A stretch of 45,025 nt of DNA, taken from a virus. Numbering within the stretch: the first letter of the stretch is position 1; each line of letters opens with the position of its first letter. A program made the position numbers and the translations under genes. The DNA lies in IMG/VR virus record IMGVR_UViG_3300035698_029279, positions 1 through 45,025 of that record; one strand, given 5' to 3'. Under the pieces are notes generated by a model, which made no database searches, had not been told where the DNA came from, and was given only the letters and a program-made list of their open reading frames with translations. Shown here one piece after another: positions 8,922 to 45,025 of the stretch.

Positions 8922-9268
8922 TAAGATACTCCAGCTTTATTTTTTAATTCAGCAGTAATACTAGCAGTTAAATCTCCTAAGAGCGATTTTTCACATCCTG
9001 CTCTCAAAACACATTCTGCCCGGATCATTACTCTCTTTTTTAAAATTCTTTGTCTAGCAATAGTTTTATCTAAAAGCATTTTTCCAGGGACATTTTGTAA
9101 ACCTCCCAAAAATACAACAAGAGAATCTAGAGCAGTTAAATCAGTTAAAGGAACTGTAGTAGAAGAGGGGGCACCTAAACTATTACCTAAGTAAGCTAAT
9201 GCTTGCGCATTAAACTGACTTTGAACTTCTACATCATATTTGTCTAATTCAGCTTTTAAATCTGACAT
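8921..9268 (-). CDS. Small tail/baseplate protein, unknown, 115 aa
   Basis: Starts inside the last codons of the sigma-factor gene (20-base overlap) and ends on the ATG of the gp25-like gene. Helical: an acidic N-terminal helix, a Ser/Thr linker, then a basic helix with two cysteines ('RAECVLRAGCEKSLLG') and a C-terminal helix. No family recognised. The overlaps on both sides suggest translational coupling of the sigma factor to the baseplate wedge genes. Baseplate assembly factor or minor wedge protein would fit, as would a partner of the sigma factor, but neither is shown by the sequence. Confidence 0.6.
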   Translation of the reverse strand: MSDLKAELDKYDVEVQSQFNAQALAYLGNSLGAPSSTTVPLTDLTALDSLVVFLGGLQNVPGKMLLDKTIARQRILKKRVMIRAECVLRAGCEKSLLGDLTASITAELKNKAGVS

Positions 9269-9950
9269 TATTACTAAGCCCTTCTTTTAATTTTTTAGCC
9301 ATAGCTAAAGATTTATTACTTATTGAAGCCGGAGACATTTTTAATTTTTTTGCAATATTAGCTTTAGTACTTATGGGACTTCCTCCATATCCAGTAGTTT
9401 GCTCAAAAATATATTTATCATCTTTATTCAAATCATGGTAAACATAATCCATAAACTCTCTAAACTTATCTGAACCCAAAACTCCCGGGTCGAATTCTAA
9501 AAGACCTGTAGAAACTTCTTTTCTTGTTTGTTCTCGCATACGTTTAACTCTAGGTAGATCCCATCCTAAATGCTCCCCTAATTCTTCTAAAGAAGGTTCT
9601 CTTTTAAAATTCTCTGTCAGCTTTTGTTTTGCTTCTTGAAATCTCCCGACTTTTTGTTGTAAAGCTTCCGACATTCTCATTGCTTGTTGTGAAGAATAAT
9701 TTAATCTATTTAATTGTTTTAAATTATTTACAATATGAGTAGATAAAGCTCCTTTATTTGGATCATAATTTTTAATAGCTTGGGCTAAATATACTTTAGC
9801 ATAACTTTTAAGACTATTATCAGCAATAGTACCTTTATATAATCCCATCTGTTGGAAGACTAATCTCTTATACTGAGCCATAACGTTAGCTAAATTTTTA
9901 GCGGAAGGTTCTGCTTTCCATACGTCGTATTCTACTGGATATTTAGCCAT
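9249..9950 (-). CDS. Sigma-70-family RNA polymerase sigma factor
   Basis: I place the start at ATG 9950 (MAKYPVEYD), with GGAG six to seven bases upstream; a longer frame to 10055 lies inside the upstream gene. In the 233-residue product, residues 46-84 match region 2 ('LAQAIKNYDPNKGALSTHI' against the AVEKFDxxRGxxFSTYA type). Residues 97-147 match region 3, with 'FKREPSLEELGEHLGW' (cf. GREPTxEElAexLG). Residues 172-224 match region 4, ending in a helix-turn-helix 'TKANIAKKLKMSPASISNKS'. Region 1.1 is absent, as in group 3 sigmas. The region 2.4 aromatic pattern differs from housekeeping sigma, so promoter preference is unknown. Its partner could be the phage polymerase encoded at 34-41 kb or the host core. 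Location between the hub and wedge genes is unusual. Confidence 0.88.
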   Translation of the reverse strand: MAKYPVEYDVWKAEPSAKNLANVMAQYKRLVFQQMGLYKGTIADNSLKSYAKVYLAQAIKNYDPNKGALSTHIVNNLKQLNRLNYSSQQAMRMSEALQQKVGRFQEAKQKLTENFKREPSLEELGEHLGWDLPRVKRMREQTRKEVSTGLLEFDPGVLGSDKFREFMDYVYHDLNKDDKYIFEQTTGYGGSPISTKANIAKKLKMSPASISNKSLAMAKKLKEGLSNNVRFKS

Positions 9951-9951
9951 T

Positions 9952-11511
9952 TTAATCTCCTCCCCAAAACGTTCCAAACCCACCACTACCAATAACTTGA
10001 AGAACATTGGAATAATTAAAAGTAGGATACAATGGGTTGCCCCTTTCGTCACCACTAAATTGATTAGGATAATTAATAAAATTAAATGCTACATTAGTAG
10101 AAGCAGACGAAGAACTAAAATTATGGGAAACAGAATTAATAAATCCGTAAACATTACTCATTTTAAAAGGGTCTTCAAAAGAGGCAGTTAATCCTGGAAC
10201 TACATCTAACCTTAATCTTAAATTTGCAGATCCAGTTTTTTGTTTACATTGTTCTTTCATTAAAACATATTTAGCATACATGTCAAGTAATTTTTGGGTT
10301 TTTTCTGCAGGTATTTTTTCAAGAACTGGAGGGTTGGTTCCTTTAGATTGAGAACCTTGAGGATTTTTTCTTTTTTTATCTATTACACGTAACCATTCAA
10401 ACAAATTTATAGGATTAACAAAGTGAGCCTTAACACCTGTTAATTTTTCTTGAGGAGTCATCCTAGTATATGAAGGATAACATCCCATAAATGGAAAGGC
10501 TTCTTCCTTATCTCCTTTTTTACTAAGTACTTTAACAGTGGAAGTTGAAGCAACAACACATCTGGTAGGAGCATAAAATGGAGAGTCTGCAATATTTATA
10601 GCAATTATATCCTCTTCAGTAAATATATTATTAGGGGAGTAATTATAAGGGTCCGCTAAAGTAGCTTTTACAGTAATAAATGTTTTGTCCCATATAGTAA
10701 CCATTACCAACCCATAAGCATCTAAAATTTGTAAGAAAAATTTATAAAAAGTTAAAGTAGGATTACTAAATGCCTGAATCGCTAAGGATGTTGCGAAACT
10801 CGACTTATGATCTTCCCAATCTAAAAAATTATCAATCCCAGGAACAAGAACAAGATCATCTATTTCTTTATTAATAACAGAAGATTTACCTTTTACAAGA
10901 CCATATGACTTTAAAGCCATAGTATTTATTTTTCCAATAATAGAATTAGATGATTTTATAGACTCTTCATAAAAATCTACAAAACGATTATACATGTGCA
11001 CTACATTTTTAGAGGTAATTAAAGTTAAACGCAATTTTTCAGCAGCATCTTTGTATTCTTTAGCTCCAGTTGAATACTTTACACTATAATGAATAGAAGG
11101 TCCAGGAATATTATAAGCAGGAGATCCTATAAAAATCCTATCAGATCTAAACATTCCACCAGAACATTGTAAAGAGTAAGAAACACCCCCTACACTTTTA
11201 ATTTGCTGGAAACCTACTAAAAACCCTTTAAAAATAGTTCCAGCATTAATATATCCAAAACGTCCCCCATCTTTTATAGATACTTCGACTTCAGCATAAC
11301 TAGCAGAAGTTGTCATTCCTTGAGGAAATAAAGATTTAAGATACGATAATCCTCGTTCAGTTCTATATACAATCCCTATAGTAGCACGAGACAAACTATT
11401 TATACTAAAACTTACGGAACAAGCACTTATAACACAACCATGGGAGGTTATATCACTTCCTTTTATTTTTACTGATAAATCTATTTTATCTAAAGTAAAT
11501 TTACTAGACAT
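9952..11511 (-). CDS. Putative baseplate hub protein (gp27/gpD-like)
   Basis: 519 residues. The N-terminal 130 residues are beta-rich with 'VSFSINSLSRATIGIVY' and 'GTIFKGFLVGFQQIKSVGGVSYSLQC', the pattern of the tail-tip hub barrel domains seen in gp27/gpD-type proteins (I..G..V.....g.....L.c). A helical insertion (about 160-215) and a C-terminal domain with 'VVPGLTASFEDPFKMSNVYGFINSVSH' (about 440-480) follow, as in hub proteins where a final OB-like module closes the ring. It lies downstream of the tape measure and upstream of the wedge genes, as expected for the hub. The start overlaps the previous stop. A promoter-like sequence lies inside at 10259-10286. Confidence 0.6.
   Translation of the reverse strand: MSSKFTLDKIDLSVKIKGSDITSHGCVISACSVSFSINSLSRATIGIVYRTERGLSYLKSLFPQGMTTSASYAEVEVSIKDGGRFGYINAGTIFKGFLVGFQQIKSVGGVSYSLQCSGGMFRSDRIFIGSPAYNIPGPSIHYSVKYSTGAKEYKDAAEKLRLTLITSKNVVHMYNRFVDFYEESIKSSNSIIGKINTMALKSYGLVKGKSSVINKEIDDLVLVPGIDNFLDWEDHKSSFATSLAIQAFSNPTLTFYKFFLQILDAYGLVMVTIWDKTFITVKATLADPYNYSPNNIFTEEDIIAINIADSPFYAPTRCVVASTSTVKVLSKKGDKEEAFPFMGCYPSYTRMTPQEKLTGVKAHFVNPINLFEWLRVIDKKRKNPQGSQSKGTNPPVLEKIPAEKTQKLLDMYAKYVLMKEQCKQKTGSANLRLRLDVVPGLTASFEDPFKMSNVYGFINSVSHNFSSSSASTNVAFNFINYPNQFSGDERGNPLYPTFNYSNVLQVIGSGGFGTFWGGD
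10259..10286 (-). promoter_or_regulatory. Promoter-like sequence inside the hub gene, upstream of sigma
   Basis: TTGACA at 10286-10281, 16 bases, TTTAAT at 10264-10259. It lies about 310 bases before the sigma-factor start and could give the sigma gene its own transcript. Same hexamers as the promoter ahead of the head genes at 27389-27417. It is in codons and could be chance. Confidence 0.3.
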
Positions 11512-34131: not shown

Positions 34132-34155
34132 GAGAAAAAAAATTATTTTTTCTCT
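34131..34155 (-). terminator. Possible weak terminator hairpin at the end of the beta' gene
   Basis: AGAGAAAAAA (34155-34146) can pair with TTTTTTCTCT (34140-34131) around a 5-base loop, overlapping the beta' stop codon. The stem is mostly A-U and no long U run follows, so termination would be weak; it might act in either direction or be chance from AT-rich sequence. Confidence 0.3.
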
Positions 34156-35969
34156 TCTCCAAATCCTGTAGCCCTAGCATACGGATGAACGAACGAAGTT
34201 CCTCGATATGGGGACGATTCAGCTCTATGTGTACTTTCTGTAATATTTTCTAATAAATGAGAAGAATACAATTTATGCATCCAATCATCTTTCTGTCTAG
34301 GAACATCTGGAAGTCTTATCATTACTGGTTTAAAAGAAGGGGCTTTATTAGTTACCTTAATTTCTTTTATTCCATTGTCTTTTAATTCTTTTTTTACAAA
34401 ACTACTAATTTTAGTACCTGCTGTAAAATAAAGCTCTGGTTCAACTAAAAATCCATTTGCTTTTTTTGTTTCAATTATTTCTACATTATTAGGCTTGTAT
34501 GAGCCTTTAACATTTTGATACTCAACCACATCTCCAGTAACATAATTATCAAATTCATCTATACTTTGTATTTCAACATGATTTATTAATCCTCTGGCAA
34601 TTGTATCAAACACTCTCTTATTCCTATGTTGTCCTTCACCTTTATAAATATCTCTAAAATGATCAGACAATATTTTTCTACCCTGCCCTAACCCTTTATA
34701 TTCAACAATTTCTTTAGGATTTAAAATTCCTTCATTGGAAATTTGATCTCCCAATTCTAAAACTTGATCTTTCTTAACTTTAACACTATACACAGAAGGG
34801 AGATAATGAGGAGTATCTTCAACATCTACATAAGTTCCCCCTTGAGGAGCATTTCTAATATCAGTTACTTTTCCTTCTTTTTCAGATAATACAGCTGCTC
34901 CTGGAAACACTTTAGGGACAAAAGTTATTCTTTTTAATAAATCTAAACCTTTTGCTTTTGTCTTGCCTCCAGCAACCCCTCCTGTATGTTTTACATTCAT
35001 AGCCATTTGAGTTATAGGTTCTGTAATAGATGAAGACATTATAAGTCCAGCATTATCATTTAAATTAAAATTTTCTCCAGAACTATTTTTACCAATACAT
35101 TTCTTACAAATACCTTTAGAAGATTGACAAGTTAACGGGGATCTTACAATTATTTTTTTAATTCCTTTTCGTTTTAAAGAATTAATAATCTCTGGAGTAA
35201 TTAGACTTCCCTTTTCAATACCACCTACTGAAATTGATAAATAACCTCCAATATTATCTTTATCATCTATATCCTCAGGAGTACCTGTAGTTGTCCTGCA
35301 ATCATCTTCAGATATTAATAAATCTGAAACACCCATAGAAATAAGCTTAGTTAAATAACCTGGAACTCTAGTAGCTTCTACTGTTGCTACTAACCCTTGT
35401 CTAGTCCCATGACTTGCAGACCAATATTCAGAAGGTTTAAGTCCTGCAGAATAAGAATTTTTTATAGGGTTTAATATAGGTCTACCTTTAATATCTGTAA
35501 CAATAACAGGAGCGCCAATAGTGGAATTAACTGCTGTAGGTTTTCCTCTAGCCCCTGCTACTACCATCTTCGCAAACATATTGTCTTGTTTAAGACCCTC
35601 TGACACTACCTTATCTTGAAAAGTAGTAGCTAAGTTAGAGTATATACTAGCTACTTGCTCATCTAATTTAGTGCTATCTCCTACTTTTCTTTTTAGAGCT
35701 TTAATAGCATTATCCGCTTTATCAAAATAAGATTTTACGTCAAAAGGAGCTTTAAAATCATTTAATTTAAAAGACATACCTTTTTCATAAGCAAATTTAT
35801 CTCCTAAATTTTTTAGATCTTGAGCTACTTCAGCATACTCTGAAGAATTATTTAATGCTATATCTGTTAATATATTTCCTAATTTAGATTTAGTCATTTC
35901 TATATTAGATTCTCGATACTTTTCGGGAAGTATATCATTCACCAATAATTTACCAACAGTAGTTCTCAA
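34143..35969 (-). CDS. RNA polymerase beta' subunit, C-terminal part
   Basis: Starts with TTG at 35969, seven bases after AGGA. 608 residues beginning TTVGKLLVNDILP, which aligns with the TTVGR segment that follows the catalytic part of bacterial beta'. Trigger-loop region at 184-212 ('SASHGTRQGLVATVEATR', 'GYLTKL'), preceded by 'MVVAGARGKPTAVN' bridge-helix-side sequence. Second zinc site: C224 (SEDDC), C281, C288, C291, all four present. 'SSSITEPITQMAMNVKHTGG' (312-331) matches the conserved GEPGTQLTMRTFHTGG. The C-terminal third is divergent. It should assemble with the beta-beta'N chain encoded upstream to complete the catalytic core. No alpha or omega gene is in the window. Confidence 0.93.
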   Translation of the reverse strand: MRTTVGKLLVNDILPEKYRESNIEMTKSKLGNILTDIALNNSSEYAEVAQDLKNLGDKFAYEKGMSFKLNDFKAPFDVKSYFDKADNAIKALKRKVGDSTKLDEQVASIYSNLATTFQDKVVSEGLKQDNMFAKMVVAGARGKPTAVNSTIGAPVIVTDIKGRPILNPIKNSYSAGLKPSEYWSASHGTRQGLVATVEATRVPGYLTKLISMGVSDLLISEDDCRTTTGTPEDIDDKDNIGGYLSISVGGIEKGSLITPEIINSLKRKGIKKIIVRSPLTCQSSKGICKKCIGKNSSGENFNLNDNAGLIMSSSITEPITQMAMNVKHTGGVAGGKTKAKGLDLLKRITFVPKVFPGAAVLSEKEGKVTDIRNAPQGGTYVDVEDTPHYLPSVYSVKVKKDQVLELGDQISNEGILNPKEIVEYKGLGQGRKILSDHFRDIYKGEGQHRNKRVFDTIARGLINHVEIQSIDEFDNYVTGDVVEYQNVKGSYKPNNVEIIETKKANGFLVEPELYFTAGTKISSFVKKELKDNGIKEIKVTNKAPSFKPVMIRLPDVPRQKDDWMHKLYSSHLLENITESTHRAESSPYRGTSFVHPYARATGFGEEKK

Positions 35970-35978
35970 AGTATATTC

Positions 35979-36716
35979 CTACATTCTTGAAATTAATTTT
36001 GAAGCATAATTTTTAAGAGCAGCTGCATCAATCATTTCCTGAAAACTAGCATCTTTTCTTAGTTCCTCAAATAAAAGCTCTGAATCAATACCTTCTGCAG
36101 ACGCTTCTTTTAAAATTGATTCCAACGACCCTACCATAGCACTTTTAGGACCTAACATATCAGTTAATAAATCAACTTTTTGAGCCATTACAGTTAACTT
36201 TTCATTTAAAACACCTAGCTCTTTATATACATCATTTTTTGAGCCGCTTGCTCCACTTGCTGCAGAAGGAGCTTCTACTGGAGCTGCAGGAGCTGCAGGG
36301 GCTGCAGGAGCAGTTTCAGAGGGTAGAGGAAGGGCTGGAGCGGCTGTTTCTATAGGAAGCTGAACCATTCCTTGTTGCACTAACATATCAATTTGCTGAA
36401 TTACTTCAGCTGGAGCGCCTTGAGCTTGAAGCTCTTGTTTAATCTTATCTATTGTTAATCCTGAATCAAGCATTCTCTGAATCATCTGAATAGGGTCTTG
36501 TGCTTCACCCGGTGCTGGAGGTGCTCCACCCATTGCAGGATCCATTGGAGGAGGGGGCATTCCACCTGCCATTGCAGGATCCATTGGAGGAGGAGGCATT
36601 CCACCTGCCATTGCAGGATCCATTGGAGGGACTGCTCCTGGCGCTCCTGATGGGGGAACAAAAGCTTGTTTTCTTAAATCTCTTAAAATTGAATCTGCTT
36701 GGTCAAGAATGTTCAT
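35979..36716 (-). CDS. Pro/Ala-rich protein between the two beta' parts, 245 aa
   Basis: Starts MNILDQADSILRDLRKQAF, with head-side motif LRKQA at 14-18. Residues 25-70 hold about three 13-residue tandem repeats, GGMPPPPMDPAMA. A second low-complexity part has APAAPAAP. The C-terminal 110 residues look folded and helical ('LGVLNEKLTVMAQKVDLLTDML', then 'LESILKEASAEGIDSELLFEELRKDASFQEMIDAAALKNYASKL'). AGGAG precedes the ATG. It separates two parts of one enzyme, so it may be a linker or polymerase partner, a tether to the capsid wall, or an unrelated virion protein that was inserted. No family recognised. Confidence 0.6.
   Translation of the reverse strand: MNILDQADSILRDLRKQAFVPPSGAPGAVPPMDPAMAGGMPPPPMDPAMAGGMPPPPMDPAMGGAPPAPGEAQDPIQMIQRMLDSGLTIDKIKQELQAQGAPAEVIQQIDMLVQQGMVQLPIETAAPALPLPSETAPAAPAAPAAPVEAPSAASGASGSKNDVYKELGVLNEKLTVMAQKVDLLTDMLGPKSAMVGSLESILKEASAEGIDSELLFEELRKDASFQEMIDAAALKNYASKLISRM
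36522..36634 (-). repeat. In-frame 39-bp tandem repeats encoding GGMPPPPMDPAMA
   Basis: About three near-identical 39-base units (13 codons) within the Pro/Ala-rich gene. Copies share almost all bases, so the array is probably young or still variable in copy number. Encoded proline-rich units are likely flexible and extended. Confidence 0.8.
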
Positions 36717-36734
36717 TATAAACTCCTATAATTA

Positions 36735-39700
36735 CTAAATTTCAATCGAATCATTTAAATCAATTTCACCTCTATGATAGGCTGCAATAGCTTCTTCTTT
36801 ATTTTTAAATTTTTTAACTTTTCCTTTTCCTTGTTTAGTAGCTTCAAATAACCCATACACAGCTTCATGCGAAGGTTTATGAACTACTGAAGATCTCCCA
36901 ATATGCATTAAATTTTGAGAAGGCAATAATTTTTCTATTGACTCTTTTCTTGCTGCTTCAGTAACTGGAGTATACACACTCACTGAATCACCATCATAAT
37001 CCATATTAAATCCTTCTTCAATAAGAGGAGGAACTTTAATAGTGTTCCCTTTAGTCCTCATAGGAAACAAAGCTAACATATTAAATTTATGAAGAGTAGG
37101 GGACCTATTAATTATAGACGGCCTTTGGGACATTTCTGTATCTAACATTCTTTCCGCTACTTGGTCCCTATCTTCAATCATTTCACTAGCCTTTAAAGCA
37201 GGGTACCCTGCCATAACTAATTTTCTCATTACAAAAGGTTTGTATAATTTCCATGCCATATCTTCTGGCATTCCTATAGTATCCATAGGAATAGTAGGAT
37301 CAGGAATTACAATCCCTCTACCAGATAAATCTTGAGTTTTCCCAATTACTTTAGCATGAAAAACACCTGTCTTTGGAGAAGTTCCAGCTACTTTAGCCAA
37401 AAATCCTTTTAACCCTTTTTGCTTAAATTTATAATTAACAGGCTCACCTAACCCAACTACTGCCTTAGCAGAATTATATAAATTAGCCCGTTCTTCTTCT
37501 AACTCTTCTCCAGGTAATTCTTTTTTAAGAAGTCTAAAACTATCATTAGCCTGTATAACATCTTTATATAAATTATTGGCATCATCAACTAGAGAAGTAT
37601 TTCCTTCAATTACAGTAATGGGGCGATATATAGGAGGAAGGACTGGAAGTTTAGTTAATATTAAATCCTTAGGTTTAATATCATTTTTCTTTAATGCTTT
37701 CAAGTATCCTAAAGTTTTAATAGCTTTATCTTTTACTGACTTATTACCTTCTTTTATTATTTTCTTTTGAGCAACTATCTCTTCCTCTACATTTATTTTT
37801 GATAATTGCTTTTTAATAAACGACCCTCCCTTTTCTCTTAGAGTAGCTTCAAAAGTTTTTTGATTCATTCCCAACATAAACTTTATAGGAGTCTCCATTA
37901 CAGGATTAGGTATAGGTTCTTCTAAATTTATATGCGTCCATTTTTTTCCTTGTGCCCCACCAGTCCTAACTGAGTCAAATAACCCATGCCTCTCTGGTTT
38001 CAAATCTCTAGATTTAAGCATTTTTGAATTTTCTATCACTCCATTAGACATTTTATTAATTTCATAATCAGTTAATGGCATAAGATTAACCCCTTGATTA
38101 TCTTTAACTACATTAATACCTGAAGCTTGAAGCATATCCATAAATTTAGCATAAATAAAATTATCATCTGGTGTAGGTAATGGAAGCCCTAACTTCATAG
38201 CCTTCCAATACTCATCATTTTTATTACCTTTTAAATTTGAAATTTCTCTTAAATTATGAACTGCCCCATGACTTAAAAGAGCATTCAACTGAAGATTAGA
38301 AATTCTCTTAGCAGCTCCAGTAGATCCTCTTGCAGGTTTTAACTCCGCAGTATATTCTTCTCCTGGACCAGCTGATCTAGCGCTAAATCCTGATTCCGCT
38401 GTTTTAAATAATTTATTAAATCTTTGTCTTCCTACCATTACATTAGGAATAGTTTTTCCTGTAGTAGGATCTATTAAATCCTCAGTGTCTTTCACTCCAT
38501 ATTTTTTTAATTCTTTTTCTGTATACTCTATCATACTATCATCAGAAAATAGAGGAGCTTTATACACAGTATTATTTTTATGAGCTATCTTTCCAAGTAA
38601 AGTTTCTGTTATTTGAGCAGGATTAATTCTAGAAGGAACTCCAGCAGGAGTTAAAAGGATTTCCAGGTGTTCTCCTGTCTCTTTTACTTTTGGCATTTGA
38701 TCATCTGGAACTATTAAAGAGACTACTCCTTTTCCTCCATACCTATTACTATTTCCGGAAAAGTAACACTTACCGTTTCTTTTTACATACAGTATATGAG
38801 AAGATACTTCACAACTATAAATTTTATCATTATAATCTACCCATTCCTCTTTATGAATTATACAGCAAAGGTGAGGAGTAAAACCTTCAGAAGGATCTTC
38901 ACCTCCAGTTAAAAAGCTTCTAAGAGCACCAAATAATGAAGTGGACGTTTCAAACTCAAATTTAATACTGTCCGGTTTAGCTACATAATGTTTATGGTTA
39001 GGAGTAACTAATATATCAATCTTCTGATTTTTTAAACAATACATCTTCCCATCATAATCATAAGAATAAATATTAGTAGGTTTTTCATACTCCAGACTAT
39101 TAGTTACAGAATTTAAAGAGGCCACCCTATCCTCATAAGATAAATCTTTAAAAAATTTCCATCCCTCTTCAGTTAAAATTTCTGTTTCTTTATCAAAACA
39201 TAATTTATCCGCTATCACCATTGGCTTCTGAGTTCTAACATTTACCTTAATTCCAGAATTAGTCTTTTGAACATCTATAACTTCACCTTCATAAGCCTCT
39301 TCCCAAGTAGTGGCATCTTCCATATAAGGTTCTTTTAATATAGAATGTAATTTACCAAACTGAACATCCGTAGTAGAAAATTCTCTTATCTTAGAATTAA
39401 GAATAATTGGATCATTAGGCTTTAAAATAGTCCCTGGTTTTATAACTCCGTCAGAATCAATATTTTCTAACTGGGCTTTATTAAAAACCCCTGGAAATAA
39501 ACTAATGTGCTTATTCTTATTTATGCTACTCTGTTTATTTTTTTCTTTTTCTATAGAATACATGTGGTCAGAAACTAATTTTTTAGCGGCAGACTCACTT
39601 ATAACAATACCATCTTCGTGATTATACCCCTTAAAAGGAAGATACCCTACATGTAAATCCCTACCTAAAGCTAAAACCCCTTTATCATCAGTATAATTAC

Positions 39701-41492
39701 TTGTAGCTAAAATTTCCCCAACTTTTATTTTATCACCTTTTATAACTTGAACCTTATTATCAAAATAAGTTTTACGATTAAACGGGAAATTATTATATAA
39801 ATCGTATTTTTTTAATCCGTCTTTCCCTTTAACAACAATAAAATCTTTTGTTACTTTAGTAACTTCTCCAGAATCTTTTGCCTTAATTACTCCAGTACGT
39901 TCTCCTGCCATTTCCTCAAATGATTTACCATTTTCACTAGCACTCTGAATTAAAGGGGCTTCAGGATTTACTAATGGAAAAGCTTGTCCTAACATTTTAC
40001 TCCCCATTAACAACCTATTTCCTTGGACACTTCCAATCATAGGAACTAAATTACTCATACTATCAAACATCTCAGAAGGGTTTTTAATTTTATACTCTAC
40101 TTTGGAATTATGGACTTCTCCCATTTTATTACCTTTATCGGAAGCCATTACCATTCTACCTTTTTCTCCAGGAAACATTACGACAGCTTTATCAAATTGT
40201 TCTGGAGTTATCCACTTTTCTTTATTAGCTTTATCTACAACTTTAGTAAATAGATTATTATTCGCATCCCGTTTTACTCCTGAAGCTAAATGTAAATCTA
40301 CCCCAGCAGCGCTTGATTCTGGACTACGAATAGGGTCTACAAAACCAAATTGAGAAGCATGTACTTGTCTAGTTTCATCTGGAACAGAAGAAGAAGACCC
40401 AATACCTCCTTCACCTAAAGAAGTCACTTTATTAAAATGTTCATAAATTTGAAGAGGGTTATTCTGTTCTATTGGTCTAGACCTACTGTCTTGAGTAATT
40501 AATGAATCAATAGGTCTAGTAAAATATCCAGATTTAAGACTTCGTAAAGAACCATCATATGTAGCTTTATTTAATAATCTCTTTTGAAGATTCCCAGAAT
40601 CCTTTAAAATTCTCTCTTCTACAAAATCTTCTATACTATGAATACTTCTAAATTTTAATGAATCTCTATCATCAAAATCTTCCTCTCCTTTATACACTTT
40701 TAAAAGTTTTTTTGAAGCATCCATAATAGCATCTATATTTGCTTCTTTATATGGTTTTCCAAGAGTAACTTTTGTAACTTCGGGATCTAATTTACCAAGA
40801 CTAAATTTAGCAAATATAGCTTTAGCTTTTTCTCCAGCGCTTAAATCTTGATTAGCATTTCGTTTATGGAGTTTAGAATATATATCTGTTACTTCACGAA
40901 TACCTCTATAAGCATCTTTATTAGCCTGAAGTAATTCTTTTCCCCATTTTTGCTCTAAAGTAGCGTCCCCTATTCCTGCATGTTTTAAAAGAGGATATAA
41001 ATTCTTTTTAGACTGCCCTATATTTAATTTAAAAAGACCTGATTCTGATTCCATAAAAACTCTAAAACTAGGAGATTCAGAAGCGCTATCAACATTAAAA
41101 TGAGATTCTAATAATTCATTAGATTTTTGTCTGGTATAAACTCCAGGTTTTAGACGAAACTGATTAATAGTAGAATATTCATTTCCTTTTGAAATAAATG
41201 TTCCTCTCTCAGTCATATAAGGAAGTTGGGCTAACGTAGTATCTACTTTATCTACTACGTTTCCACTTTTATCTTTCATAGTAACTGTACCCTTCAAAGG
41301 AAGAGTAAGCTTGAGGTTTTTTAACAAATGTTCTTTCTGCTCTTTTTTTCCAAATTTTCTTTCTGGAACTTTAAGATTACTAAATTCAATATCATACTTC
41401 GTTCCTTCAAGAGTTCCTACTTTTTTAAAGGCCTTTTTAGCTTTTTCAAATATTAAATTTCTTCTAAATTCAGTGTCGGAAAAATCATACAT
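36735..41492 (-). CDS. RNA polymerase beta fused to beta' N-terminal part, with intein
   Basis: Start ATG 41492 (MYDFSDTEF), nine bases after GGAG; an ATG at 41501 is too close. 1585 residues. Beta part, about 1-1130: 'TERGTFISKGNEYSTINQF' (94-112), rifampicin-region-like 'IEQNNPLQIYEHF' (341-353), 'DPIRSPESSAAGVDL' (386-400), 'GYNHEDGIVIS' (622-632). Intein at 765-914, then 'SNRYGGKGVVS', 'GVPSRINPAQITETLLG' and C-terminal 'GFSARSAGPG'. Beta' part: 'KPERHGLF' (1165-1172), 'LPVLPPIYRP' (1282-1291), 'INRSPTLHKFNMLALFP' (1461-1477), catalytic NMDYDGD (1496-1502). It ends about 80 residues later, where beta' continues in the gene at 34143-35969. The beta' N-terminal zinc domain is missing; clamp-helix sequence (about 1305-1350), the usual sigma dock, is present. 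Confidence 0.95.
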   Translation of the reverse strand: MYDFSDTEFRRNLIFEKAKKAFKKVGTLEGTKYDIEFSNLKVPERKFGKKEQKEHLLKNLKLTLPLKGTVTMKDKSGNVVDKVDTTLAQLPYMTERGTFISKGNEYSTINQFRLKPGVYTRQKSNELLESHFNVDSASESPSFRVFMESESGLFKLNIGQSKKNLYPLLKHAGIGDATLEQKWGKELLQANKDAYRGIREVTDIYSKLHKRNANQDLSAGEKAKAIFAKFSLGKLDPEVTKVTLGKPYKEANIDAIMDASKKLLKVYKGEEDFDDRDSLKFRSIHSIEDFVEERILKDSGNLQKRLLNKATYDGSLRSLKSGYFTRPIDSLITQDSRSRPIEQNNPLQIYEHFNKVTSLGEGGIGSSSSVPDETRQVHASQFGFVDPIRSPESSAAGVDLHLASGVKRDANNNLFTKVVDKANKEKWITPEQFDKAVVMFPGEKGRMVMASDKGNKMGEVHNSKVEYKIKNPSEMFDSMSNLVPMIGSVQGNRLLMGSKMLGQAFPLVNPEAPLIQSASENGKSFEEMAGERTGVIKAKDSGEVTKVTKDFIVVKGKDGLKKYDLYNNFPFNRKTYFDNKVQVIKGDKIKVGEILATSNYTDDKGVLALGRDLHVGYLPFKGYNHEDGIVISESAAKKLVSDHMYSIEKEKNKQSSINKNKHISLFPGVFNKAQLENIDSDGVIKPGTILKPNDPIILNSKIREFSTTDVQFGKLHSILKEPYMEDATTWEEAYEGEVIDVQKTNSGIKVNVRTQKPMVIADKLCFDKETEILTEEGWKFFKDLSYEDRVASLNSVTNSLEYEKPTNIYSYDYDGKMYCLKNQKIDILVTPNHKHYVAKPDSIKFEFETSTSLFGALRSFLTGGEDPSEGFTPHLCCIIHKEEWVDYNDKIYSCEVSSHILYVKRNGKCYFSGNSNRYGGKGVVSLIVPDDQMPKVKETGEHLEILLTPAGVPSRINPAQITETLLGKIAHKNNTVYKAPLFSDDSMIEYTEKELKKYGVKDTEDLIDPTTGKTIPNVMVGRQRFNKLFKTAESGFSARSAGPGEEYTAELKPARGSTGAAKRISNLQLNALLSHGAVHNLREISNLKGNKNDEYWKAMKLGLPLPTPDDNFIYAKFMDMLQASGINVVKDNQGVNLMPLTDYEINKMSNGVIENSKMLKSRDLKPERHGLFDSVRTGGAQGKKWTHINLEEPIPNPVMETPIKFMLGMNQKTFEATLREKGGSFIKKQLSKINVEEEIVAQKKIIKEGNKSVKDKAIKTLGYLKALKKNDIKPKDLILTKLPVLPPIYRPITVIEGNTSLVDDANNLYKDVIQANDSFRLLKKELPGEELEEERANLYNSAKAVVGLGEPVNYKFKQKGLKGFLAKVAGTSPKTGVFHAKVIGKTQDLSGRGIVIPDPTIPMDTIGMPEDMAWKLYKPFVMRKLVMAGYPALKASEMIEDRDQVAERMLDTEMSQRPSIINRSPTLHKFNMLALFPMRTKGNTIKVPPLIEEGFNMDYDGDSVSVYTPVTEAARKESIEKLLPSQNLMHIGRSSVVHKPSHEAVYGLFEATKQGKGKVKKFKNKEEAIAAYHRGEIDLNDSIEI
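38751..39200 (-). other. Mini-intein (150 aa) in the beta active-site segment
   Basis: Splits DKL from SNRYGGKG, which aligns with bacterial DKMAGRHGNKG, that is between two active-site lysines (E. coli beta K1065 and K1073). N-terminal splice block starts with Cys ('CFDKETEILTEEGWKFF'); block B has 'ILVTPNHKHYV' with the TxxH pair; the C-terminal blocks read 'KIYSCEVSSHILYVKRNG' and end SGN, followed by Ser as +1 nucleophile. The penultimate residue is Gly rather than the usual His. No LAGLIDADG or HNH homing endonuclease is present. Splicing would leave a normal DKLSNRYGGKG. Visible nucleophiles C, N and S suggest it is active. Confidence 0.92.
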
Positions 41493-41823
41493 CAATAACA
41501 TCTCCGTAATCTATTGTTCCACGAGATATAGCTCTAGCTCCTGCATCTAATAAAAGTTTTCTCATTACGGGTCTTTTTAATTTAGAAATTAAATCTTTTG
41601 GAATTTCTACATTTACGCTTTTAAGATGTTTATAAATTTCATGAACACTCATCTTGTTTATTCTGGACATAATTTTCTTTTTATAATCCAATTGTCTTTG
41701 ATTAACTTCTTCTTTATTAAGTCTGGAAGAAATTGAATTACTTATAAGTTCTTCAATGGATTTTTGATCTTTCTTTTTAAAAACATCAGAAGCTTCACTT
41801 AATGCTGCTAATCCACCTATCAT
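41485..41823 (-). CDS. Small helical basic protein upstream of the polymerase, 112 aa
   Basis: MIGGLAALSEASDVFKKK start, then Lys/Arg-rich helices with 'DYKKKIMSRINKMSVHEIY' and 'KLKRPVMRKLLLDAGARAIS'. AAGGA precedes the ATG. Its last codons overlap the start of the polymerase gene (ATG inside GATGTATGA), so the two are translationally coupled. It may be a head-side or polymerase-associated protein; the head-side K-x-A motif is absent. No known family. Confidence 0.6.
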   Translation of the reverse strand: MIGGLAALSEASDVFKKKDQKSIEELISNSISSRLNKEEVNQRQLDYKKKIMSRINKMSVHEIYKHLKSVNVEIPKDLISKLKRPVMRKLLLDAGARAISRGTIDYGDVIDV

Positions 41824-44682: not shown

Positions 44683-45025
44683 TTATTCTTCCATAAGGTT
44701 ATCAATTCTATCTGTAATAACTTTCAATGCTGACTTACGACAGTCACTACCTTTAGCTTTTTCCAATTTTTCAAGTTCTTCCAAAGCAGAAATATGCACA
44801 ATATCTTCTATTGCATTTTTAATTTTAGCAACAGAAAGTAAAATGATTTCTCCAAGATTATAATCATATTCTTTTACAATGTCAAGAACTTCTTCAACTT
44901 TTTCTTCAATTTCTTCAACTTCTTCAATTTCTTCAACTTCTTCAATTTCTTCAACTTCTTCAATTTCTTCAACTTCTTCAATTTCTTCAACTTCTTCAAT
45001 TTCTTCAACTTCTTCAATTTCTTCA
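44683..45025 (-). CDS. Acidic-repeat protein, C-terminal part (starts beyond window)
   Basis: The frame enters from beyond the window and ends with TAA at 44683-44685. First about 40 visible residues are (EEVEEI)n repeats encoded by an 18-bp tandem repeat; then about 75 residues look helical: 'KVEEVLDIVKEYDYNLGEI', 'LLSVAKIKNAIEDIVHISAL' and 'GSDCRKSALKVITDRIDNL'. A highly acidic coiled segment may act as DNA mimic or extended linker. Inside it is a perfect TTGACA-17-TATAAT sequence. Product unknown. Confidence 0.75.
   Translation of the reverse strand, partial: EEIEEVEEIEEVEEIEEVEEIEEVEEIEEVEEIEEVEEIEEKVEEVLDIVKEYDYNLGEIILLSVAKIKNAIEDIVHISALEELEKLEKAKGSDCRKSALKVITDRIDNLMEE
44857..44885 (-). 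promoter_or_regulatory. Perfect sigma-70 consensus promoter within the acidic-repeat gene
   Basis: TTGACA (44885-44880), exactly 17 bases, TATAAT (44862-44857), on the coding strand and about 180 bases before the start at 44678. Both hexamers are perfect. It could drive the six small genes and the polymerase locus. It lies in codons, so a chance match cannot be excluded. Confidence 0.55.
44906..45025 (-). repeat. 18-bp tandem repeat (EEVEEI coding)
   Basis: At least six and a half copies of an 18-base unit (ttcttcaacttcttcaat on the plus strand), continuing past the window edge. Nearly perfect copies; encodes Glu-Glu-Val-Glu-Glu-Ile. Confidence 0.9.

Follow-up and report, generated by a model that had tools for sequence, protein, structure and literature searches.

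The polymerase locus

The window, which is the whole of a virus record of 45,025 bases, carries tailed-phage genes together with genes for a multisubunit RNA polymerase. The ORF list, profile searches and alignment identify the minus-strand ORF at 36735-41501 as encoding, with no interruption of the frame, a precursor of 1588 amino acids made up of RNA polymerase beta and the N-terminal part of beta', with a mini-intein inside. By alignment, the N-extein (39201-41501, minus strand) has 767 amino acids and ends in MVIADKL, while the C-extein (36735-38750, minus strand; 671 amino acids) begins with SNRYGGKG and has near its end DYDGD, the metal-binding motif, in the beta' N-part of the fusion. 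The C-terminal part of beta' was recognised by profile searches as an ORF of its own (34143-35969, minus strand). Over the minus-strand region 34143-41501, then, beta' is broken after the DYDGD domain and its N-part is joined to beta; the break is apparently where, according to a review (PMC7598289), the polymerases of jumbo phages and cyanobacteria are split. An earlier note on this DNA had called the extein around the insert canonical, a description that does not hold for it as a whole, given the fusion of beta to the beta' N-part, the separate beta' C-part and the presence of ADK in place of GDK.

The minus strand of the window also encodes a protein with a likeness to a phage sigma factor (9249-10055; phrog_351, E 1e-10) and two low-complexity proteins, one with a PPPMDPAMAGG repeat (35979-36716) and one with an EEVEEIEE repeat (44683-45024).

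Junctions and conserved residues of the insert

The mini-intein (38751-39200, minus strand) forms residues 768-917 of the precursor, in frame, and has 150 amino acids with a computed mass of 17.45 kDa; profile, alignment and model all support its assignment. Its first residue, Cys1 (39198-39200, minus strand, as for all of the features below), is the first splicing nucleophile and is conserved in all 31 aligned alleles. Block B, T66-P67-N68-H69 (38994-39005), contains a His found in all 31 alleles and a Thr found in 29. A short linker of approximately residues 77-117 (38850-38972) takes the place of some 200 extra residues in the full-length alleles, among them, in many cases, a LAGLIDADG endonuclease. 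Block F reads IYSCEVSSH (38796-38822). On the allele alignment and with the position nomenclature of PMC4031507, Ser129 occupies F:4, a position with Gly or Cys in the alleles; Cys130 comes next, and His135 is treated as F:13. The insert ends, after Ser148, in Gly149-Asn150 (38751-38756; each residue present in 30/31 alleles) and is followed by Ser+1 (38748-38750), the C-extein nucleophile, a position at which filled sites have only S, C or T. The earlier note had proposed a mini-intein here, with Cys1, a TxxH block and a C-terminal SGN/Ser between DKL and SNRYGGKG; its coordinates and residues prove exact, and profile, tblastn, empty homologues and model agree with it. The splice nucleophiles, which it had judged intact, are to be seen in the sequence as Cys1, Asn150 and Ser+1.

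Profile evidence on the insert alone is close to threshold: the NCBIfam profile intein_Nterm gives E 5e-5 and 24.2 bits, slightly below its cut-off of 24.5, and Pfam Intein_splicing gives only E 0.033, the insert not being picked up when the window record was searched with this latter profile. In tblastn, the insert matches inteins of other phage proteins, the best at E 1e-18 (Lak phage). Profile searches gave no LAGLIDADG match in the window's insert, while alleles have PF14528; at 150 amino acids and with no such match, the insert bears out the earlier statement that an endonuclease domain is absent.

By these residues the insert, having Cys1 and lacking the WCT motif, is a class 1 intein. 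Class 3 was considered since the nearest solved fold belongs to it. Class 3 inteins have Trp two positions beyond the His of block B, Cys at F:4 and Thr at G:5, with no Cys or Ser at position 1 (PMC7664689); the window's insert begins with Cys1 and has His71, Ser129 and Ser148 at the WCT positions, which rules this class out.

The insert is predicted to adopt a Hint fold. An AlphaFold2 model, computed from an alignment with the 31 alleles, has a mean pLDDT of 94 and a pTM of 0.87, and Foldseek against the PDB returns as its best match 6zgq, the AceL NrdHF intein (TM 0.88), together with many other inteins, a hedgehog Hint domain and BIL domains. This nearest solved fold shares only 15% identity with the insert and differs from it in kind: AceL NrdHF is a split intein of class 3, with WCT and a block F Cys, whereas the window's intein has Cys1 and is contiguous.

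Empty homologues and the catalytic lysines

When the flanks of the insert are joined in silico, they align without a gap at the junction to uninterrupted homologues from L001, Vibrio phage D69, Salmonella phage Arash and L062. The empty site reads VGDKI-AGRAGNKG in L001 and SDKI-ANRFGGKG in L062, the nearest empty homologue (44% identity). Among isolated phages, 88 records have similarity to the polymerase, including 4 close fusion relatives, and the site is empty in all three that were checked (D69, D181 and Arash).

When the joined loop is compared with polymerases of solved structure, the equivalences being derived from phmmer aligned ranges, K766 of the N-extein (39204-39206) falls at E. 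coli beta K1065, which is T. thermophilus 838, and a Lys of the C-extein (38730-38732) at E. coli beta K1073, or T. thermophilus 846. The insert thus stands between two conserved active-site lysines, one on either side, as the earlier note had it.

Full-length and short inteins at the identical junction

The earlier note had suggested, as a check, an alignment with inteins at the same site in other phages; searches found 34 distinct full-length inteins and a second mini-intein at the identical junction. The full-length inteins, of 325-363 amino acids, lie in viral or phage-like contigs (those of L139 and L224, for example, have 352 and 336 amino acids); each follows DKx or SKx, begins with Cys and ends in Asn (Gln in L186), after which comes the Ser, Cys or Thr of the loop. 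Pfam LAGLIDADG_3 scored above its cut-off in four of eight tested alleles (L114, L093, L158 and L246) and was not found by Pfam in the other four (L100, L112, L136 and L153). Three filled loci (L245-L247) lie on MAG contigs; all are beta/beta' fusions, and their DNA is therefore probably phage DNA. The full-length alleles, such as L114, L093, L158 and L091, have in common with the window's intein the junction DKx|C...GN|S, Cys1, the block B His, the Gly-Asn end and a GW motif in block A, but they are far longer, many have LAGLIDADG_3 and they share at most 47% identity with it over the splicing blocks. It should be said that the first viral scan, with a polymerase query, gave empty sites only, because uninterrupted matches rank higher in it; the alleles came to light with one C-extein query and two junction queries.

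The second mini-intein (L285:2650-3090) has 147 amino acids. In the tree it groups with L278 and L255 (support 98/92), and the window's intein groups weakly with L114 and L252 (90/17); no bootstrap tree unites the two short forms. Since the groupings differ and no bootstrap tree joins them, short forms seem to have had two or more origins at this junction, that of L285 being separate.

Among 122 distinct extein sequences, 31 have the site filled and 91 have it empty, a filled share that is inflated by the deliberate search for filled sites. On a FastTree tree of the exteins there are at least 19 changes between the filled and empty states, 14 of which are forced by well-supported branches. The +1 residue at filled sites is Ser in 29 cases, Cys in one and Thr in one; at empty sites it is Ala in 35, Ser in 31 and Thr in 19, with others besides. 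Such a pattern is what a mobile element that requires a +1 nucleophile should show. On this sequence evidence the site is an intein hotspot, and the window's element, because many full-length inteins occupy the same site, represents a single stage in a cycle of homing.

The penultimate residue and block F

A penultimate His is usual in inteins but it is not universal and hence not defining. The window's intein has Gly149 instead, and the suggestion that this Gly would slow cleavage finds no support: Gly is the rule at this position, in 30/31 alleles and in 46/46 non-allelic phage inteins, a set gathered with a motif that allowed either a small residue or His there. Several inteins with no penultimate His do splice (PMC7664689, PMC5050341). 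In the mycobacteriophage Bethlehem RDF intein, replacement of the native Gly by His dramatically slowed splicing, and a block F His can substitute for the role of the penultimate residue (PMC5050341). By analogy, His135 is taken to be the block F His able to take over that role. The Bethlehem intein resembles the window's in being a class 1 phage intein with a penultimate Gly, and its splicing has been shown experimentally; it differs in its host protein and in carrying an endonuclease.

Block F itself is unusual, with Ser129-Cys130 at positions where alleles mostly carry Gly or Cys and then a hydrophobic one. Residue 147 is Phe, where all 31 aligned alleles have Trp (Phe occurs in 3/46 of the non-allelic phage inteins). 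To judge from their positions, Ser129, Cys130 and Phe147 may alter the rate of splicing, in a direction that sequence does not predict.

Origin of the mini-intein

The mini-intein most likely descended from a full-length homing intein by loss of its LAGLIDADG endonuclease, and loss from a full-length allele of this very site would be the simplest route. The nearest allele, L114, has 47% identity over the splicing blocks, as does L252, and has a matching SNRFGGKG flank. The splicing domain of the window's intein is slightly closer to the non-allelic L176 (55%) than to any allele, in a comparison whose non-allelic inteins were picked by their likeness to it and which is so biased toward a non-allelic origin. 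A topology that unites the window's intein with the alleles in one clade survives the AU test (p-AU 0.68), and the tree, of 109 columns, is compatible with either allelic or other-gene ancestry.

Probable splicing and alternative explanations

Taken together, the evidence very probably describes a class 1 mini-intein that splices to yield the catalytic loop and that is most likely a former homing intein minus its LAGLIDADG endonuclease. After translation, Cys1 would attack the Leu-Cys bond and the N-extein would be transferred to Ser+1; cyclisation of Asn150 would then allow the exteins to be ligated into the loop DKL-SNRYGGKG, with both catalytic lysines, and the 17.45 kDa intein to be released. 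Calculated masses are 178.2 kDa for the precursor and 160.8 kDa for the ligated chain. We infer both the splicing and the inactivity of the unspliced enzyme. The mini-intein would persist for two reasons: a deletion that was not exact would wreck an essential loop, and a chain left unspliced should be dead. A selfish element retained through selection that acts on the host protein is a simpler reading than splicing as a timing switch, and nothing in the sequence demands that polymerase activation be timed by splicing.

We consider it unlikely that slow or condition-dependent splicing keeps the polymerase inactive until a cue that comes late or after entry. Such a conditional intein would be well placed in the catalytic loop, where the unspliced enzyme is almost surely dead; the unusual block F, with Cys130 beside F:4, could in principle respond to redox state, and it has been argued that phages may tune the splicing rate via such residues (PMC5050341). 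Yet selfish spread without regulation explains the full-length homing alleles and the patchy distribution, and the block F residues concerned are missing from most alleles. The related proposal that the mini-intein was retained after endonuclease loss as a splicing gate on the polymerase, the block F Cys acting as a sensor and activation coming only at a defined point of the infection or upon a redox change, appears a little less likely still. The substitutions S129, C130 and F147, at block F and G positions that are otherwise conserved, might instead mark a decayed intein that cleaves only, or does not splice and remains as a structured insertion; with the nucleophiles and block B intact, the frame open, the model confident over the full length and a catalytic loop so interrupted that a non-splicing allele would mean a dead polymerase, this is improbable. 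It is more improbable again that the insert is a BIL or a hedgehog-type Hint domain that cleaves instead of splicing: Foldseek does retrieve both, but an intein is favoured by the exact insertion in a conserved motif, by homologues with the site empty, by Ser+1 and Asn150, and by the allelic inteins that share the junction. An assembly chimera merits equally little credence. The window is a single metagenomic contig for which a second, near-identical contig was not found, but both junctions are in frame, the same junction occurs on independent contigs, and the composition of the insert (GC 30%, GC3 19%) is near that of its flanks (31-33% and 16-18%).

Relation to known systems

Inteins favour conserved sites in host proteins. 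Goodwin et al. (2006; PMC1635734) described eukaryotic and giant-virus inteins in RPB2, RPA2, RPC2 and RPO, placed at conserved positions about the active centre. Like the window's intein, these lie in the homologous subunit near the active centre, and several end in Gly-Asn; they differ in their eukaryotic or giant-virus hosts and in length, the complete ones having 354-488 amino acids. The review of jumbo-phage polymerases (PMC7598289) makes no mention of inteins, and we found no earlier report, in the open-licence literature searched, of an intein at this phage polymerase site. Inteins in homologous subunits were thus known, and what is new is a hotspot at a phage site with inteins at differing stages of endonuclease loss. 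This one site shows all stages of the homing cycle, namely empty, LAGLIDADG-bearing, full-length with no recognised endonuclease and at least two separate mini-inteins, and offers a natural series for studying the loss of intein mobility and whether the retention of a mini-intein has a reason.

Other insertions in these polymerases

Two further loci have inteins in this catalytic loop, displaced downstream from the window's site by a few residues. One follows GNK (L171:4082 onward), its +1 Ser replacing the Gly of GNKG, and another follows GNKGIIT (L233:4076 onward), with a +1 Cys where relatives have Lys; the ligated motifs therefore differ from the canonical one. L175 has two inteins in one polymerase gene, at the window's site and in the beta' part (GKTTPK|C...GN|S). 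L030 has an intein at a different site in beta (DPIRTPE|C...WSGN|S), and L094 has an intein-like insertion in beta at another conserved point (PAKGGKTG|CFPSTQKILT...). In Vibrio phage D181, about 950 bases with a homing endonuclease gene (L007:4441-5389) split the polymerase gene between MVPFFNS and its downstream part. This interruption is perhaps an intron; the polymerase gene of Vibrio phage D69 is uninterrupted at that point.
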